DNA of 38,284 nt from Thermodesulfobacteriota bacterium (lineage in GTDB: Bacteria; Desulfobacterota; Anaeroferrophillalia; Anaeroferrophillales; Tharpellaceae): NCBI GenBank assembly GCA_024763535.1, contig JANTFH010000019.1, positions 1-38,284 on the forward strand, written 5' to 3'. A program made the translations under genes and the position numbers. The notes under the pieces were generated by a model. It worked only from the letters and a program-made list of their open reading frames with translations. It did not search any database and was not told where the DNA came from. Of this stretch, positions 42 to 7,711 are shown one piece after another. Positions within the stretch are counted from its first letter, which is position 1. Each line of letters begins with the position of its first letter.

Positions 42-362
42 ATGAATGCACAAGAAAAGCGTATTTACGAAGCAAAAGCCAAAGTTTTGAAGGCTCTGGC
101 TCACCCAACCCGATTGTGGATGGCGGAGCAGTTGGGGAACGGTGAGCGATGTGTCTGCGAATTTGTTGATGAGATTGGAGCTGATTTTTCGACAATCTCA
201 AAACATCTGTCGGTTTTGAAACAGGCGGGAATTGTTGAAGATGACAAACGCGGTAAACAGGTTTTCTATCGTTTGAAAGTGCCGTGTGTCTTAAGTTTTA
301 TGAGCTGTGTCGAAGCGGTAATCGAGTCGCAGGTAAGGACTCAGGCGGCCCTGATCGCCTAG
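42..362 (+). CDS. arsR: ArsR/SmtB-family metalloregulatory repressor
   Basis: This is a 106-residue winged-helix repressor of usual family length. The ALAHPTRL segment (residues 18-25) is the family's typical N-terminal helix. ERCVCEF (residues 36-42) supplies the Cys-X-Cys pair (C37, C39) of the alpha-3 metalloid or metal site, as in ArsR and CadC-like sensors. The recognition helix follows (FSTISKHLSVLKQAGIV), then a beta wing (GKQVFYRL). Two more cysteines near the C-terminus (PCVLSFMSC) could add ligands. The start ATG has GAGGTGAG just upstream. The protein probably represses the whole downstream operon through the TTATTT/AAATAA palindromes and releases on binding As(III) or a thiophilic metal. 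The inducer cannot be read from the sequence. Confidence 0.9.
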   Translation: MNAQEKRIYEAKAKVLKALAHPTRLWMAEQLGNGERCVCEFVDEIGADFSTISKHLSVLKQAGIVEDDKRGKQVFYRLKVPCVLSFMSCVEAVIESQVRTQAALIA

Positions 363-523: not shown

Positions 524-1825
524 ATGAGTTGGAAGTCGGAATGGGAAAAACTCCTGCTTATTGTCGGGGTTTTTTTAGCTTTTTTCTATCTGCCGGTAGG
601 TTCGCAGAGATTTGACAATGCGATTATGGAGGCGCTCTATCTGGCGAAATGGTACGCCCGGGAGCATGTCCTTTTATGCCTGATCCCGGCCTTTTTTATT
701 GCCGGGGCGATTGCGGTTTTTATCAGTCAGGCCTCGGTAATGAAATATCTTGGTGCCCGGGCCAATAAAATCCTGGCCTACGGGGTGGCCTCGGTTTCCG
801 GGACGATTCTCGCGGTCTGTTCCTGTACGGTTCTGCCGCTGTTTGCCGGAATTTACCGGATGGGCGCCGGTCTCGGGCCGGCGACGGCTTTTCTCTATTC
901 CGGCCCGGCGATAAATGTTCTGGCGATTGCCATGACAGCCCGGGTTTTAGGCCCGGAACTCGGCATCGCCCGGGCCGTGGGCGCGATTCTGTTCAGTGTC
1001 GTTATCGGCATCCTGATGCATCTGATTTTCATAAAAGAGGAGACTGAAAAATCTCTGGCTCAGGTGGCTATGCCGGAGGAGGAGGTCAAACGTCCCCTGT
1101 GGCAGAATGCTCTCTATTTTGCCGCAATGGTCGGGATTCTGGTTTTTGCCAACTGGGGAAAACCGGATGAGACTACCGGTTTATGGGTGGCAATCTACAG
1201 TGCTAAATGGATTGTAACTTCACTTTTTGCTCTGGCTCTGGGAGTGATGCTGGTGCGCTGGTTTGCCGTGGCCTGGTGGAAGGTCGTGGCGACGGCTCTG
1301 CCGGTTGCCGGGCTGGCACTGGCTTTTCCCCATCAGCCGCTGATCGCGTTTGCCGCCGCGACCATTGGTCTGTCTATTTTTACAAGTACCGACAAGGGTG
1401 AAAACGGCGAATGGTTTGCATCCTCATGGGGGTTTGCCAAACAGATAATGCCGCTTTTGCTCTTCGGGGTTTTAGTCGCCGGTCTGCTGCTCGGCCGGGT
1501 CGGCAATGAAGGTCTGATCCCTTCGGAATGGGTGGCGCATGCGGTCGGCGGCAACTCTCTGGCGGCTAATTTCTTTGCCTCTTTCGCCGGCGCCTTTATG
1601 TATTTTGCTACCCTGACCGAGGTTCCGATTCTGCAAGGCCTGATCGGTAACGGAATGGGCAAAGGCCCGGCTTTGGCCCTGCTGCTGGCCGGGCCGGCTT
1701 TGAGCCTTCCCAATATGCTGGTTATCCGCAGCGTCCTGGGAACGAAAAAGACAGTTGTTTTCGTCTCTCTGGTAATCGTTATGGCGACTATCAGCGGTAT
1801 CCTGTTCGGAGCGTTTTTCGCTTAA
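524..1825 (+). CDS. COG0701/DUF318 permease (ArsP or SO_0444-like metal/metalloid efflux)
   Basis: This is a 433-residue polytopic membrane protein of the predicted permease family COG0701 (DUF318). The family includes ArsP, which exports trivalent organoarsenicals, and the SO_0444-type Cu/Zn efflux proteins. The diagnostic block is near residues 96-130: a CSC motif followed by TVLPLFAGIYRMGAGLGPAT and SGPAINVLAI. It is repeated in the second half as TEVPILQGLIGNGMGKGPAL and LAGPALSLPN, matching the internal duplication of the family. In ArsP a conserved Cys pair binds arsenic, and the CSC here is the natural candidate. The start ATG follows AGAGAGG. With an ArsR-type gene upstream and ArsF/ArsG-like genes downstream, a role in arsenical or soft-metal efflux is likely. 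The substrate is inferred. Confidence 0.85.
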   Translation: MSWKSEWEKLLLIVGVFLAFFYLPVGSQRFDNAIMEALYLAKWYAREHVLLCLIPAFFIAGAIAVFISQASVMKYLGARANKILAYGVASVSGTILAVCSCTVLPLFAGIYRMGAGLGPATAFLYSGPAINVLAIAMTARVLGPELGIARAVGAILFSVVIGILMHLIFIKEETEKSLAQVAMPEEEVKRPLWQNALYFAAMVGILVFANWGKPDETTGLWVAIYSAKWIVTSLFALALGVMLVRWFAVAWWKVVATALPVAGLALAFPHQPLIAFAAATIGLSIFTSTDKGENGEWFASSWGFAKQIMPLLLFGVLVAGLLLGRVGNEGLIPSEWVAHAVGGNSLAANFFASFAGAFMYFATLTEVPILQGLIGNGMGKGPALALLLAGPALSLPNMLVIRSVLGTKKTVVFVSLVIVMATISGILFGAFFA

Positions 1826-1856: not shown

Positions 1857-2450
1857 ATGACTAATGAACAATTTGCGGCAGCGATGGCTTTTCATGGCCA
1901 CAAATGTCCGGCAATGCCTCTGGGTTTTCGCTCGGCGGAAGCGGCGATGAAGACTCTGGGGGTCAAACGGGCCCAGGATAAGGAGCTTTATGTTATTTCG
2001 GAAACCGGTAAAGGCCATGCGGCCGGCTGCTTTCTGGACGGCATAATGTCGGCTACCGGTTGTACCTACGGTAAGTCAAATATTGAGAAATTGTACTACA
2101 ACAAAATGGCCTTTACTCTGATTGACATTGCGGGCCGGAAAGCGGTTCGGGTGCGCTTAAAAGATGATTTTTTCGGTAATATGCTGAATTCGCCTTTTGT
2201 TAAACTGCGCCGGGACGGGGTGCTGCCGCAGGATGTTCCCGCCGAAGTCGCAGATCCGCTGGTTGAGAAGGTTCTGCAGATGCCGGAGGAGGCTTTTCTG
2301 GAGGTCGGACCGGTTGAAGAGTACGATTTTCCCAAAGGTGCCGGCTGTTTTGAAACGGTTCTCTGTGCAAAATGCGGCGAACGGGTTTTTGCCAATAAAG
2401 TGACTGAAACCGACAGCGGCTCAATTTGCGCCGCCTGTAATGTCGGTTAA
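1857..2450 (+). CDS. FmdE-family zinc-ribbon protein
   Basis: This 197-residue protein is related to subunit E of formylmethanofuran dehydrogenase (FmdE/FwdE). The N-terminal HGHKCPAMPLGFR motif (H13, H15, C17) and GKGHAAGCFLDGIMSATGCTYGK are the FmdE core. The C-terminus carries a zinc ribbon (CAKCGERVF then ICAACNVG). There are no other methanogenesis genes, so the formylmethanofuran role does not apply. Stand-alone FmdE proteins are common in anaerobes and are thought to bind metals or molybdopterin-type cofactors, but their role is poorly known. The gene has a strong AAGGAGAG ribosome site and lies 31 bp after the permease, so it is probably cotranscribed and may act as a cytoplasmic metal-binding accessory. 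Confidence 0.85.
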   Translation: MTNEQFAAAMAFHGHKCPAMPLGFRSAEAAMKTLGVKRAQDKELYVISETGKGHAAGCFLDGIMSATGCTYGKSNIEKLYYNKMAFTLIDIAGRKAVRVRLKDDFFGNMLNSPFVKLRRDGVLPQDVPAEVADPLVEKVLQMPEEAFLEVGPVEEYDFPKGAGCFETVLCAKCGERVFANKVTETDSGSICAACNVG

Positions 2451-2748: not shown

Positions 2749-3549
2749 ATGACGACAACCCTTCTTCTGGCGTTGGTATTCTTCCTTATCTCGACCATCT
2801 TTTCAATGATCGGGATGGGAGGGGGCATTCTTTATGTTCCGATCCTGCTTTTTGCCGGATTTACCTTTGAACAGGCCCCTGCGATCAGTCTGATGTTGAT
2901 CAGCGGTACCTCCCTGGCCGCACTTCTGACCTTCTGGCGTAACCGTAAGGTTGACTGGAAGCTGGCCCTGGTGATGGACCCGCCGACGGACATTATGGCT
3001 TTTGTCGGGGGCTACTACAGTTCTCTGGTTCCGGAGCCGGTTTTAAGGTCGATTCTGGTCGGAATTCTGATGCTGGCCGGGACTTTGATGCTGCTCAATA
3101 AAACCCGCCCGGTCGTTGATCGGGCCGTGGCCGACGGTAAATGGTGGCTGTGGCACCGCAGTTTCAACAATGTCAGCTACACGGTCAATCTGCCTCTGGT
3201 CCTGACGGCCACAGCATCAATCGGGATGTTGTCGGGTATGCTGGGAATTACCGGCGGTATTATTAAGCTGCCGATCATGGTGCTTTTGTGCGGTGTGCCG
3301 ATGGATATCGCCGTGGCTACCTCCACGGTCATGGTGGCGATTACGGCTCTGTCGGGGTTGGCGGGCCACGCTCTGAGTACCCAGTTGGACTGGCGGGTCG
3401 GTCTGGTGCTGGCTCTGGCGGCGATTATCGGCGGCCGGCTCGGCAGCCGGATCTCGATTTCAATGGACAAAGCCCGGCTTAAAAAATGGTTCGGGATAAT
3501 TATCTGGCTGATTGCCCTGCGGATGTTGATGCAGCTGCTGATGCCTTAG
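2749..3549 (+). CDS. TauE/SafE-family sulfite/anion exporter
   Basis: This 266-residue inner-membrane protein has about eight hydrophobic segments. The family's duplicated motif appears as GMGGGILYVPILLFAG near residues 22-37 and as GITGGIIKLPIMVLLCGVP in the second half, followed by AVATSTVMV. TauE/SafE proteins export sulfite, sulfoacetate and related sulfur anions, or take up similar compounds. The gene is followed closely by a periplasmic thioredoxin and ArsF/ArsG-like genes. It may therefore move a sulfur compound used in thiol redox chemistry, or a metal-thiol conjugate; this is inference. The ATG follows GGGGTAACTCTTT, a moderate ribosome site. The gene lies just after the foldback repeat and may use a separate promoter. 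Confidence 0.85.
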   Translation: MTTTLLLALVFFLISTIFSMIGMGGGILYVPILLFAGFTFEQAPAISLMLISGTSLAALLTFWRNRKVDWKLALVMDPPTDIMAFVGGYYSSLVPEPVLRSILVGILMLAGTLMLLNKTRPVVDRAVADGKWWLWHRSFNNVSYTVNLPLVLTATASIGMLSGMLGITGGIIKLPIMVLLCGVPMDIAVATSTVMVAITALSGLAGHALSTQLDWRVGLVLALAAIIGGRLGSRISISMDKARLKKWFGIIIWLIALRMLMQLLMP

Positions 3550-3564
3550 CTGTTGGAGATGTTT

Positions 3565-3957
3565 ATGAAGTTTTGTTTCAAATATATGGTAGCAGCGATA
3601 CTGATCTCAGGCTTTCTGGCGGTTTCAGCCGGGGCCCGAGAAGAGGGGAAGGCCCTGCCTAAATTGATGGATCTCGGCGCTCATAAATGTGTGCCCTGTA
3701 AGAAAATGGCCCCTATCTTAGAGGAACTGGCCCGGGACTACAAGGGCGTATTCGAAGTTGAGTTTGTTGATGTCTGGCAGTCGGAGAACCGGGAAAGAGC
3801 CATGCAATACAAAGTCAGGATGATTCCCACGCAAATCTTTTTCGATGCCGAAGGTAAAGAACTCTGGCGCCATGTCGGATTTTTCTCAAAAATGGATATC
3901 TTGAGGGAGTGGCGAAAATTGGGTTATGACTTTAAAGTGCCGAATGGAAAAAAGTAG
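3565..3957 (+). CDS. Exported thioredoxin-fold protein (CVPC)
   Basis: This is a 130-residue thioredoxin-like protein. A signal peptide or N-terminal anchor (residues 1-23, ending VSAGA) places the domain outside the cytoplasm. The active site is CVPC (C42, C45) in LGAHKCVPCKKMAP, followed by the cis-proline segment RMIPTQIFF and GKELWRHVGF. The start chosen is the ATG at 3565, because GGAG (3555-3558) sits six bases before it. Earlier in-frame TTG and ATG codons overlap that ribosome site. It overlaps the next gene by 14 bp. CcdA/DsbD-like permeases relay electrons from the cytoplasm to such proteins, so the downstream ArsG/CcdA-like protein is a plausible reductant. Confidence 0.88.
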   Translation: MKFCFKYMVAAILISGFLAVSAGAREEGKALPKLMDLGAHKCVPCKKMAPILEELARDYKGVFEVEFVDVWQSENRERAMQYKVRMIPTQIFFDAEGKELWRHVGFFSKMDILREWRKLGYDFKVPNGKK

Positions 3958-4414
3958 AAAAATTTTAACCCGGCTGCTGCTCGCCTTTGTTCTGATAAGT
4001 ATCGGTTTCGCTTTCGGCCGGCATTCTGTTAAGAACAGCAGTCTGCCGGTGGCTGAATCGTCAGCTAAAGGGAGCTATGTCAATGTTTACTATATGCACT
4101 CTACCTTTCGCTGTGAAACCTGCAATACGATCGAAGCTATGACCCGGGCGCTGCTTGATAAAGATTATGCCGCGGAGCTGGCTGACGGCCGGGTGAAATG
4201 GCTGGAGGTCGATTTTCAGGAGGAGAAGCTGCTGGCCGAAAAATTTTCGGTGGTCAGCAGCTGTGTCGTTGTGGCTTTGATGGCTGATGGCGAAGTAGTT
4301 GATTTCAAGCGTCTGGACGAGGTCTGGACCCTGATGCAGAAAGCGGATCAGTTTAACCGCTATATCAGTGATGCCGTCAACCTTATGCTCCGGCAGCAAG
4401 GTGAAAAAACATGA
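3944..4414 (+). CDS. arsF: ArsF-like thioredoxin-fold protein (nitroreductase subunit family)
   Basis: This 156-residue protein has one N-terminal membrane anchor (about residues 8-25) and then a domain with MHSTFRCETCNTIE (C57, C60). That motif is characteristic of the ArsF family. In Shewanella putrefaciens arsEFG, ArsE and ArsF together are implicated in reducing nitroaromatic arsenicals and ArsG exports the amine product. An additional cysteine lies in SVVSSC (C107). Family members occur in many anaerobes without known arsenical chemistry, so the substrate here is open. The ATG at 3944 lies inside the end of the thioredoxin gene, and the stop overlaps the next start (ATGA), indicating translational coupling. 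No ArsE was recognised; the exported thioredoxin upstream could substitute. Confidence 0.75.
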   Translation: MEKSRKILTRLLLAFVLISIGFAFGRHSVKNSSLPVAESSAKGSYVNVYYMHSTFRCETCNTIEAMTRALLDKDYAAELADGRVKWLEVDFQEEKLLAEKFSVVSSCVVVALMADGEVVDFKRLDEVWTLMQKADQFNRYISDAVNLMLRQQGEKT

Positions 4415-5097
4415 TTGGCGCTGCAATTTTTTCCGCATTCTGGTTCGGTATTATGACCGCAATCAGTCCCTGTCCCCTGGCGACGAATATTGCCGCAATC
4501 TCCTTTATCGGGCGTAAGGCAGGGCAGCATAGCCATGTTTTAGGTTCCGGTTTCCTCTATGCGCTGGGCCGGACTCTGGCTTATGTCGCTCTGGGAAGTA
4601 TTATCACTTTGGGAACCCTGAACAGCTCCGAAATCTCCCGTTTCCTGCAGCAATATATGAACGAAGCCCTCGGGCCGACTATGATTGTTCTGGGACTGGT
4701 ACTGCTCGGCTGGGTCGGCTCCGGAGCCTCGCTTAACCTGGGGACGGTGGCGCTGCAGGAGAGAGCCGGCCGCGGCGGGGTGCTCTGGGCTTTACCGATC
4801 GGTATCATTTTTGCTCTGTCATTCTGTCCGGTTTCAGCCGGGCTTTTTTTCGGCGGGTTACTGCCGTTGGCTCTGCAGCAGCACTCCTGGCTGCTGCTGC
4901 CGGCTGCCTACGGTATCGGCACGGCCCTGCCGGTAATCATCTTCGCCTTCATCATGGCTTTTGCCTCCGCTTATCTCAGCCGGGCTTTCAACCGTCTGGC
5001 CCGGATTGAGCGCTGGATGCGTTATCTGACCGGGACGGCTTTTATTCTGGCGGGGATCTATTATTCTATAACCCATATTTACGGGGTTAATATCTAA
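4411..5097 (+). CDS. arsG: ArsG-like CcdA/DsbD-type membrane protein
   Basis: This 228-residue polytopic protein of the cytochrome-c-biogenesis/DsbD transmembrane family has about six membrane segments. Two conserved membrane cysteines are visible: SPCPLATN (C21) and SFCPVSAG (C139). This is the pair that carries electrons across the membrane in CcdA/DsbD. ArsG of the arsEFG system is a member described as an efflux permease for trivalent aromatic arsenicals. Here it could equally pass reducing equivalents to the exported thioredoxin and the ArsF-like protein. The start codon overlaps the arsF stop (ATGA), so the two genes are tightly coupled. The next gene begins 18 bp after the stop and is probably in the same transcript. 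Confidence 0.8.
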   Translation: MIGAAIFSAFWFGIMTAISPCPLATNIAAISFIGRKAGQHSHVLGSGFLYALGRTLAYVALGSIITLGTLNSSEISRFLQQYMNEALGPTMIVLGLVLLGWVGSGASLNLGTVALQERAGRGGVLWALPIGIIFALSFCPVSAGLFFGGLLPLALQQHSWLLLPAAYGIGTALPVIIFAFIMAFASAYLSRAFNRLARIERWMRYLTGTAFILAGIYYSITHIYGVNI

Positions 5098-5114: not shown

Positions 5115-5345
5115 ATGGAAAAGTTTGTATGCTACTGTTTTGAGTACACGGCCGCGGATATTGAAAAAGATGTCCTTGAAAATCGTGGCCGGTCGACAAT
5201 AATCGAAAGAATAATGGCTGAAACCAAAGCCGGAAACTGTCAGTGTCAGATCAAAAATCCCAAAGGCAGCTGATGCTTGTCTGATGTCCGCCGGGTTGCG
5301 GAACAGACTGCCGATCACTCGCACAAGGGTGTTTCGAAAACTTGA
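5115..5345 (+). CDS. BFD/CopZ-like [2Fe-2S] protein, probable selenoprotein (UGA = Sec53)
   Basis: Conventional reading gives 52 residues: [17 protein letters not shown] at the N-terminus, then GRSTIIERI, ending [11 protein letters not shown] before TGA (5271-5273). This is the BFD-like [2Fe-2S] domain of CopZ-type metallochaperones, which usually ends in a conserved NP-x-G-x-CC-L-G-D-V. Reading through the TGA gives GS-U-CLSDV and then 18 more residues to a TGA at 5343-5345. The UGA falls exactly where the first Cys of the CC pair is expected. A SECIS-like hairpin follows (5279-5308). The predicted product is 76 residues with C6, C8, C42, C44, Sec53 and C54. It lies 18 bp after arsG, suggesting a redox or metal-handling partner. 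The alternatives are a sequencing error or a TGC-to-TGA nonsense mutation. Without a SelB/SelC system the gene would be a truncated relic. Confidence 0.72.
5279..5308 (+). promoter_or_regulatory. Bacterial SECIS-like hairpin
   Basis: The RNA just after the in-frame UGA (5271-5273) folds into GUCUG (5279-5283) paired with CAGAC (5304-5308). Above that, UCCGC (5287-5291) pairs with GCGGA (5298-5302), closing a six-base apical loop CGGGUU (5292-5297). Unpaired bases sit on the 5' side between the two helices. The loop begins 18 nucleotides after the UGA and has G in its second position. Both fit the published bacterial SECIS rules: loop about 16-37 nt after UGA, and a G in the first two loop positions. 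Confidence 0.68.
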
Positions 5346-5359
5346 TACGGGGAAAACAT

Positions 5360-5887
5360 ATGGCCGAGCTGACTGCCGTACAGGCCGATATTACTACGCT
5401 TGCAGTTGATGCGATTGTCAATGCCGCGAATTCATCACTGCTCGGCGGCGGCGGGGTTGACGGCGCCATTCACCGGGCCGCCGGACCCGAACTGCTTGAT
5501 GAGTGTCGTCAACTTGGCGGCTGTCGAACCGGTGAGGCGAAAATAACTAAAGGTTACCGGCTGCCGGCGGCCTATGTCATCCATACGGTCGGCCCGGTCT
5601 GGAACGGCGGCCACCGGGGTGAACCTGATCTTTTGGCTTCATGTTATCGCCGGACACTGGAGATCGCGGCCGCCCATAATCTTCACTCCCTCGCTTTTCC
5701 CTGTATCAGCACCGGAGTTTATGGATATCCGGTGGCTCCGGCGACCGCCATTGCCGTTGCGACGGTAAAATTATTTCTGCATAAATCCCCGCATAACATT
5801 GAAAAAGTCATCTTCTGCTGTTTCTCAACGGGCAATCTGACCGTTTATCGGGAACTTTTGGGTGAGCTGACGGATTCGATCACTTAG
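5360..5887 (+). CDS. Macro-domain O-acetyl-ADP-ribose deacetylase
   Basis: This is a 175-residue single macro domain of the MacroD/YmdB type. The signature is strong: [27 protein letters not shown] near residues 17-43, then [20 protein letters not shown], and the ADP-ribose-binding loop [11 protein letters not shown]. Enzymes of this class remove ADP-ribose from proteins and deacetylate O-acetyl-ADP-ribose. The start ATG at 5360 follows GGGGAAAA. An in-frame TTG at 5342 would overlap the end of the Sec reading frame and is less likely. It may be the last gene of the preceding transcript. Its link to metal resistance or to the SOS-type polymerase downstream is unknown. Confidence 0.9.
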
Positions 5888-5964
5888 TCCGCGGGAGTAA
5901 TTCTGAACGATAAAAATATAGCCGCCGCACCTTGAAAAACTCTCTGATAAGGTTAAATATCTCT

Positions 5965-7233
5965 ATGGCTTCAGTGTTTGCCCTGGTTGACTGCAACAAT
6001 TTCTACGTCTCCTGCGAGCGGGTTTTTAATCCGCGGCTGATCGGCAAACCGGTGATTGTGCTCTCCAATAATGACGGCTGCGCCGTGGCCCGTTCAAATG
6101 AAGCCAAAGCCCTGGGGATAAAAATGGCGGTGCCGCTGTTTCAGATAGAAGATATCGTCAGAAAAAATCGGGTGCAGGTTTTCTCCTCCAACTACGCGCT
6201 TTATGCTGATATGTCGAACCGGGTGATGCGGATTCTAACTCAGTTTACGCCGAAGATGGAGGTCTATTCCATCGATGAAGCCTTTCTGGATTTGTCGGAT
6301 TCAGGCGGTATCGATCTGACTGAATACGGCCGCAAGCTCAAACAGAGGGTTGAGAAGTGGACCGGTATCCCGGTCTCTGTCGGCATCGCCCCAACCAAGA
6401 CCCTGGCCAAGTTGGCCGGGCATCTGGCTAAAAAATCAGAAAAAGCGGCCGGGGTGCTCAATCTTTGCCGGAGCCCATATCAGGAGAAGGCGCTGGCAAG
6501 CGTCAAGGTTGCCGATGTCTGGGGTGTCGGTCGCAGATATGCAAAGTTTCTGACGGCTAACGGGATTGATAATGCTCTGCAGCTGCGGGAGGCCGAGGCT
6601 GAGTTTATCCGGAAAAAGATGGGGATTAACGGGGTCAGGCTGATTAATGAGCTTAAAGGTATCTCCTGTTATCCGCTCGAAAATTCGCCGCCATCCAAAA
6701 AATCGATTACTGTTTCCCGCACCTTCAGGCAGGCGATTACAGCTCAGTCTGAACTGCTTGAAGCGGTTTCGGCCTATGCCGCCGCCGGAGCCGAGAAATT
6801 AAGAAAGGATAGGGCTGTGGCCGGAGTCCTGACCGTCTATGTGCTGACCAATCGTTTCAGTGATAACTATTATTACAACAGCGCCGCATTTAATCTGCCG
6901 GTTAGAAGCAGTGACTCCTCAGAGCTGATTCACGCCGCCCGCAAAGGACTTGAGAAAATTTACCGGAAGGATTATCAGTATAAAAAGGCCGGTATTATAT
7001 TAAATGATCTGGGGCCGGAGAGTCTGGTTCAGGCCAGCTTTCTCGATTCCGTCGACCGGCGGCGTTCAAAGAAACTGATGCTGACTCTGGATGAAATTAA
7101 TCGCGGTATGGGGGCTGGTACGATTAAATACGGCGCCGTCGGCCTGTCTCGGCGGCAGAGGTGGAAAACATCTTTTAATCAGCGTTCAAAGGCTTATACC
7201 ACCCGCTGGGAGCAACTGCCGGAAGTCTCTTGA
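5965..7233 (+). CDS. umuC: Y-family DNA polymerase V catalytic subunit
   Basis: This 422-residue UmuC-type translesion polymerase starts with the classic FALVDCNNFYVSCERVFNP. The acidic catalytic residues are in LVDCNNFYVS and in YSIDEAFLDL. The palm and little-finger motifs follow (GVGIAPTKTLAKLA-like segment, WGVGRRYAKFL), and the UmuC C-terminal region is present. The ATG at 5965 is preferred because family members begin a few residues before FALVDCNN; an in-frame TTG at 5932 is possible. UmuC copies damaged DNA when complexed with UmuD'2 and RecA. The partner umuD lies downstream rather than upstream. No convincing LexA box was recognised in front of the gene. Confidence 0.93.
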   Translation: MASVFALVDCNNFYVSCERVFNPRLIGKPVIVLSNNDGCAVARSNEAKALGIKMAVPLFQIEDIVRKNRVQVFSSNYALYADMSNRVMRILTQFTPKMEVYSIDEAFLDLSDSGGIDLTEYGRKLKQRVEKWTGIPVSVGIAPTKTLAKLAGHLAKKSEKAAGVLNLCRSPYQEKALASVKVADVWGVGRRYAKFLTANGIDNALQLREAEAEFIRKKMGINGVRLINELKGISCYPLENSPPSKKSITVSRTFRQAITAQSELLEAVSAYAAAGAEKLRKDRAVAGVLTVYVLTNRFSDNYYYNSAAFNLPVRSSDSSELIHAARKGLEKIYRKDYQYKKAGIILNDLGPESLVQASFLDSVDRRRSKKLMLTLDEINRGMGAGTIKYGAVGLSRRQRWKTSFNQRSKAYTTRWEQLPEVS

Positions 7234-7279
7234 AATTTAGCCGGTGACTGTTTTTTACCCGCCGGAAGAGAACATAAAT

Positions 7280-7711
7280 ATGAATCTGACCGCAGAAATT
7301 ATCTATAAGCCCGGGCCGTCGACGGATTCTCAGCACCCGCTTTTCTTCGTCCCGGTCTCTGCCGGATTTCCTTCGCCGGCGGACGACTATATTGAGAACT
7401 CTCTCGATCTCAACCGGCATCTCATCAAGCATCCGGCGGCGACCTTTTTTGTTCGGGTCAAAGGCGAATCGATGATTGAAGCCGGTATCCATTCCGGTGA
7501 TATCCTGATTGTCGACCGCTCCCTTGAGGCGACCGATAAAAAGGTGGTTATTGCCGTAATTGATGGTGAGTTGACGGTCAAGAGGATCAGCCTGATTGAT
7601 CAGGAGGTCTACCTGCTGCCGGAGAATGAGGCCTACACTCCGACTAAAATTACCGATACGATGAATTTCAGCATCTGGGGGGTGGTTACCAATGTCATTC
7701 ATGCGCTTTAG
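7280..7711 (+). CDS. umuD: UmuD/LexA-type S24 self-processing protein
   Basis: This 143-residue protein is of typical UmuD length. PVSAGFPSPADDYIE contains the Ala-Gly self-cleavage site. VKGESMIEAGI holds the nucleophilic serine. IDGELTVKRI provides the lysine of the Ser-Lys dyad. The ATG at 7280 follows GGAAGAG; a GTG at 7244 is an alternative. There is no N-terminal winged helix, so this is UmuD rather than LexA. It lies 46 bp after umuC, giving the order C-D instead of the usual D-C. RecA-stimulated cleavage would yield UmuD', which activates the polymerase. Confidence 0.92.
   Translation: MNLTAEIIYKPGPSTDSQHPLFFVPVSAGFPSPADDYIENSLDLNRHLIKHPAATFFVRVKGESMIEAGIHSGDILIVDRSLEATDKKVVIAVIDGELTVKRISLIDQEVYLLPENEAYTPTKITDTMNFSIWGVVTNVIHAL

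Follow-up and report, generated by a model that had tools for sequence, protein, structure and literature searches.

The gene at positions 5115 to 5345 of the window, that is, of the whole 38,284-nt stretch of DNA that was analysed, almost certainly encodes a bacterial selenoprotein, because its in-frame UGA is conserved among relatives, the RNA following the UGA is under selection, and the genome carries the selenocysteine machinery. The overall explanation that fits best, and that we regard as very likely, is a Sec-containing BFD/CopZ-like protein with a predicted [2Fe-2S] cluster and a proposed soft metal(loid) site, encoded beside arsenical permeases.

5115 to 5345, plus strand: predicted selenoprotein gene, stand-alone BFD/CopZ-like, 76 amino acids with Sec53 (translation with TGA read as U)
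5271 to 5273, plus strand: in-frame TGA, predicted selenocysteine U53 in the motif G-S-U-C (comparison of homologous columns)
5286 to 5303, plus strand: SECIS-type hairpin (fold, synonymous-codon null and covariation)

The frame opens at the ATG at 5115 and comprises 76 codons. The first-pass annotation had placed the TGA at 5271–5273 in a BFD/CopZ-like frame at 5115–5345 that runs on for 23 codons, and these coordinates were confirmed. The 23 codons are followed by a stop, the TGA at 5343–5345, and UGA is used twice in the gene, once for Sec and once as the stop. The sequence around the first TGA reads NPKGS-U-C, and the motif residues in the protein are G51-S52-U53-C54. The CxC is preceded by just five residues, and both the translation and its alignment with homologs showed that the N-terminal Cys-rich (zinc) domain is absent; the translation also showed no copper-binding CxxC domain. 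The early description of the protein as CopZ-like was therefore right for the BFD half but not for the CopZ zinc domain, which is absent here. Against NF047645 the protein scored 60.4 bits, below the cut-off of 100, and matched only the C-terminal 53 positions of the profile, and against PF04324 it gave a partial match of 23.3 bits, below the cut-off of 26. Since these scores lie below the curated cut-offs, the protein is a related stand-alone form and not an NF047645 equivalog. The usual annotation of such a gene would be a truncated 52-residue protein, or the gene would be overlooked.

When the protein was run as a query against 59 related genomes, the window's own genome among them, seven matches were obtained, each with one in-frame TGA. 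A profile search covering 395 genomes of the phylum gave matches in 68 of them, and there were about 55 close homologs of the window protein in the 395 genomes. In total, 62 loci were read, namely 60 with fetched flanks, the window and one further locus (L025). At the Sec column, a TGA followed directly by a Cys codon (TGC or TGT) was found in 60 of the 62 homologous loci. The remaining two, L113 and L114, had Cys-Cys in place of UGA-Cys; L113 is a full CopZ-NT protein, and L114 (genome G075, a 709-aa frame) is a CopZ-NT/BFD domain fused to a MerA-like flavoprotein/reductase. Five plasmid homologs also carried Cys at this column. None of the sequences read had anything but Cys or Sec in this column, which bears out the initial proposal of Sec in place of the first Cys in the CC pair. 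C44, P49, the Sec/Cys53 column and C54 were invariant among the loci compared. The gene itself was found in only 3 of 12 genomes of the same genus. A more distant Sec-BFD subfamily was represented by L117 and L118, which had UGA-Cys at the same column within the motif x-C-T-x-GRC-x-E-x-x-PRGR-U-C. L118 has a perfect hairpin (GUCAAGC/GCUUGAC) and an adjoining cation-efflux gene; unlike L118, L117 has an ambiguous hairpin after the UGA. Further weak TGA-bearing matches occurred in genomes G107, G199, G286 and G394, those in G107 and G199 being known from the TGA count alone and not from the motif.

The hairpin has a core stem in which 5287–5291 (UCCGC) pairs with 5298–5302 (GCGGA). Its apical loop, CGGGUU at 5292–5297, begins 18 nt after the UGA and has a G at loop position 2, exactly as had been noted before. 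By itself the window hairpin was only moderately above chance and is suggestive only, with z = −1.86 against dinucleotide shuffles (9 of 200 shuffles folded equally well) and P of about 0.05 against synonymous recoding. Because a single hairpin of this strength is too weak, a family-level test was used in which the codons of each locus were redrawn 500 times from its own usage with the protein kept, so that the RNA was tested. The five core pairs were complete in 95% of 59 distinct sequences, compared to 6.9 ± 3.1% under the synonymous null, where the maximum in 500 draws was 18.6% of sequences fully paired. The mean minimum free energy was −12.2 kcal/mol, compared to −6.6 ± 0.3 kcal/mol in the null. 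For covariation, 28 sequences were aligned without gaps, and two-sided compensatory changes were seen in 5 of 7 pairs, a level reached in none of 500 shuffles; the signal was lost once the pairing partner was slid. RNAalifold independently recovered the same five-pair stem. Stem swaps were evident as a change from CCGC paired with GCGG or GUGG to CAAC/GUUG in L105 and to CCAG/CUGG in L094. An outer GUCUG/CAGAC stem in the window's own fold was absent from the consensus structure and was dropped. The proposal of a bacterial SECIS element is thus upheld by a hairpin that is conserved in the family with compensatory changes, and the roughly 60 relatives together with the RNA-level test provide a firm SECIS consensus for the CopZ-like Sec family.

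selA, selB, selC and selD, which the first-pass annotation had proposed looking for, were all present in the genome. The tRNA-Sec scored 70.3 bits and was given the anticodon TCA by ARAGORN (tRNA-Sec(UCA)), and selB, selA and selD scored 411, 589 and 371 bits, respectively. The selD gene has an in-frame TGA at the classical GUAAK Sec site, and this selD (L056) is itself a selenoprotein with the motif SGUAAK. The same genome also encodes a second ArsP_1/SO_0444-like permease (G000:C36:19383-20252; L130, 380–1618) with an in-frame TGA in IPL-U-SCGTLP. It is likely a selenoprotein of the SO_0444 type, a type already in a 2026 catalogue of prokaryotic selenoproteomes (PMC13188914).

The selenoprotein gene occupies the terminal position of an arsR-arsP-like-fmdE-tauE-trx-arsF-arsG cluster on one strand, with 20 nt between the end of the ArsG gene and the selenoprotein ORF.

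42 to 362, plus strand: ArsR/SmtB-family metalloregulator (NF033788, 85.8 bits, above the cut-off of 55)
524 to 1825, plus strand: ArsP_1/SO_0444-like permease, 433 amino acids (PF03773, 236 bits; NF033936, 111 bits, below the cut-off)
1857 to 2450, plus strand: FmdE-domain protein (PF02663, 103.8 bits)
2749 to 3549, plus strand: TauE/SafE-type permease (PF01925, 175 bits)
3553 to 3957, plus strand: thioredoxin-like protein (PF00085, 47.5 bits)
3926 to 4414, plus strand: ArsF-family protein (NF040494, 91.8 bits, above the cut-off of 60)
4411 to 5097, plus strand: ArsG-family arsenical efflux permease (NF040495, 259.8 bits, above the cut-off of 200)
5360 to 5887, plus strand: macrodomain protein, the next gene downstream (NF001664, 246 bits)

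No ArsE model matched in the window cluster, in which the thioredoxin-like gene at 3553–3957 precedes arsF. The macrodomain gene likely starts at the ATG at 5360, the mechanical ORF beginning at the TTG at 5342. After it, directly beyond the ars cluster and on the same strand, lie umuC- and umuD-like genes (5932–7711). Among 60 Sec loci, an ArsP_1-like gene was found within 5.5 kb in 20 and directly upstream (<60 nt) in 10. ArsR was near 12 of the loci, Thioredoxin_3 near 12, and a low-molecular-weight arsenate-reductase-like gene, labelled from its CTQNACRSQMAE motif, near 9, while ArsF and ArsG were each detected at 3. There were 36 ArsP_1 matches in 20 of the Sec-locus genomes, or about 1.8 per genome, and from this number the chance of proximity within such a stretch is about 0.7%. 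The observed proximity, in about one third of the sampled members, was thus some 50 times the chance level, in a sample of ArsP_1 loci that is not fully independent because seven are closely related or of one family. The linked loci span at least six families (f1, f55, f61, f64, f79 and f101). An ArsP_1-like neighbour is lacking in about two thirds of the family, and for that reason arsenic cannot be the function of the whole family; many members sit in unrelated neighbourhoods. With the window gene, arsenic-resistance clusters gain a selenoprotein component.

The Cys-containing relatives on plasmids (L119–L123, from Deinococcus, Stanieria, Stenotrophomonas, Peribacillus and Methylomonas) are full-length CopZ-NT genes that adjoin merR, merT, merF or merB. 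The name 'copper chaperone' is probably misleading for these homologs, and the MerA-like fusion in L114 supports a mercury role for the Cys relatives. For the window selenoprotein, the gene context speaks for arsenic or mercury and not for copper, and soft metal(loid) handling is the common denominator of the Sec and Cys contexts in the family.

The CxC...C...NPxGxCC signature is present in the window protein, with Sec replacing the first Cys of the CC pair, and Archaeoglobus fulgidus CopZ (2hu9), reportedly a copper chaperone, could be aligned with it.

5130 to 5138, plus strand: C6-x-C8, the first two predicted cluster ligands (alignment with C75/C77 of A. fulgidus CopZ, 2hu9)
5238 to 5246, plus strand: C42-x-C44, with C44 predicted as the third ligand of the cluster (counterpart of C109 in the 2hu9 alignment)

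The match to 2hu9 was weak (E = 0.3), with C75, C77, C109 and C118-C119 aligning with C6, C8, C44 and U53-C54. Cys was found at C6 and at C8 in 57 of 60 sequences each, the remainder being gaps plus one Gly, and at C44 and C42 in 60 and 59 of 60, respectively. The signature and the alignment together make binding of a [2Fe-2S] cluster probable. As 2hu9 has no residue equivalent to C42, either U53 or C54 is expected to be the fourth ligand. An AF2 model built from three sequences had moderate confidence (pLDDT 76) and placed the Sec-Cys pair where the last helix begins. A fold search of the PDB with this model gave no significant match, the best being Pseudomonas Bfd (E = 5.0).

The comparative evidence indicates that the UGA at 5271–5273 is almost certainly recoded in a SelB-dependent manner directed by the hairpin at 5287–5302, so that Sec53 takes the place of the first Cys in the C-terminal CC pair of the family. 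From the A. fulgidus CopZ alignment, the [2Fe-2S] cluster is probably held by C6, C8 and C44 together with either Sec53 or Cys54. The other residue of this pair might then be a free, strongly nucleophilic thiol or selenol forming an exposed soft-metal site, which is a guess. Such a group could bind or reduce soft metal(loid)s, which in this cluster of genes would be trivalent or organic arsenicals; the protein could relay electrons or hand arsenicals to the neighbouring ArsP_1/ArsG-type permeases. The best-supported role is that of a cytosolic [2Fe-2S] protein that would serve soft metal(loid)s as a thiol/selenol relay or as a chaperone. Its narrower form, a relay or chaperone for arsenicals, is tentative and falls somewhat short of an even chance.

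The Sec-Cys pair could instead be a redox-active selenenylsulfide/thiol-reductase site that has no role in a cluster and passes electrons to reductases such as ArsF and ArsC. Adjacent Sec and Cys residues could cycle, C42 and C44 might pair as well, and the Thioredoxin_3 and low-molecular-weight arsenate-reductase-like genes near some of the 60 loci would suit such a site; however, the near-invariant C6, C8 and C44 match the cluster cysteines of CopZ and would be superfluous for a simple redox pair, which makes this alternative rather unlikely. A little less likely still is that the protein, in the manner of A. fulgidus CopZ, carries [2Fe-2S] clusters in general or chaperones copper, and that its proximity to ars genes is incidental. 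The closest family names are those of CopZ N-terminal domains and many family members have unrelated neighbourhoods, as this would predict, but ArsP_1 is enriched across several families, and the protein has neither the copper-binding CxxC domain nor the zinc domain. A more specific version of the preferred soft metal(loid) reading, in which Sec53 itself ligates the [2Fe-2S] cluster and creates a natural Se-ligated centre for sensing, binding or reducing trivalent organoarsenicals, the selenoprotein being a dedicated component of arsP/arsEFG-type systems, appears doubtful and less probable than either alternative. That the TGA is an ordinary stop ending a 52-residue protein, or that a sequencing error or mutation has disrupted the frame, would agree with the borderline strength of the window hairpin alone but is ruled out at the family level by conservation and covariation, the same TGA recurring across dozens of families, in about 60 loci where the frame and the RNA stem are conserved beyond it, and we give it almost no weight.

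Selenocysteine is already known in relatives of this protein. The 2026 catalogue (PMC13188914) contains an entry '(2Fe-2S)-binding protein (copper chaperone CopZ family) form 1, cd10141, GxUC' as well as a 'form 2, CU' of the CopZ family, and a 2022 review (PMC9312934) gives both forms. The window protein shares the named domain family and the Sec position with form 1, a likeness that rests on the family name and motif in the catalogue, where the example is WP_245779778.1; the form 1 passages of the catalogue and the review do not mention an ars context. Form 2 corresponds to NF045877, the 'Csac_0668 family 2Fe-2S cluster-binding (seleno)protein'. This name and the GxUC entry agree with the remark in the first-pass annotation that some family members are labelled as possible selenoproteins. 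The BFD-type half of NF045877 matches the window protein (30.3 bits, profile positions 98–156 of 161), but there Sec is the second residue of the pair and the profile is about 160 residues long, whereas the window protein has Sec first and 76 residues. Membership of NF045877 was rejected, the motif being UC and not CU and the score 30.3 bits of 190. If the UC and CU forms both bear a cluster with one shared ligand position, one of them would have a Sec ligand. UC, CU and CC occur naturally in the family as variants of a single adjacent pair, in or next to the expected [2Fe-2S] site, and a protein of just 76 residues thereby allows a direct test of selenium as a ligand of the cluster or of soft metals.

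The window protein aligns unambiguously with NF047645 (putative iron-sulfur cluster-binding metallochaperone, CopZ_Nterm_CC), with which it has C-x-C...C-x-C...NPxGxCC in common. In contrast to the window protein, which has Sec and lacks the domain, mer homologs of the NF047645 type begin with a Cys-rich domain and have Cys in the Sec column. The N-terminal domain of A. fulgidus CopZ (2hu9) includes an additional zinc-binding part that is likewise missing here. Among the ArsEFG organoarsenical detoxification genes (Chen 2019, as cited in PMC9144182), the ArsF and ArsG families lie directly upstream in the window, and compared to the genes described there the selenoprotein is an additional gene in the cluster. 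In the literature searched, which did not extend to a 2025 paper on selenoprotein neighbourhoods (PMC12013261), no mention was found of the link to ars genes, of the stand-alone form or of covariation in the SECIS element, and no paper specifically connected a selenoprotein with an ArsP permease operon. The Sec form of the CopZ family is thus already catalogued; the window gene adds a stand-alone BFD member, and the present analysis adds wide, RNA-supported conservation and a repeated link to arsenic genes.
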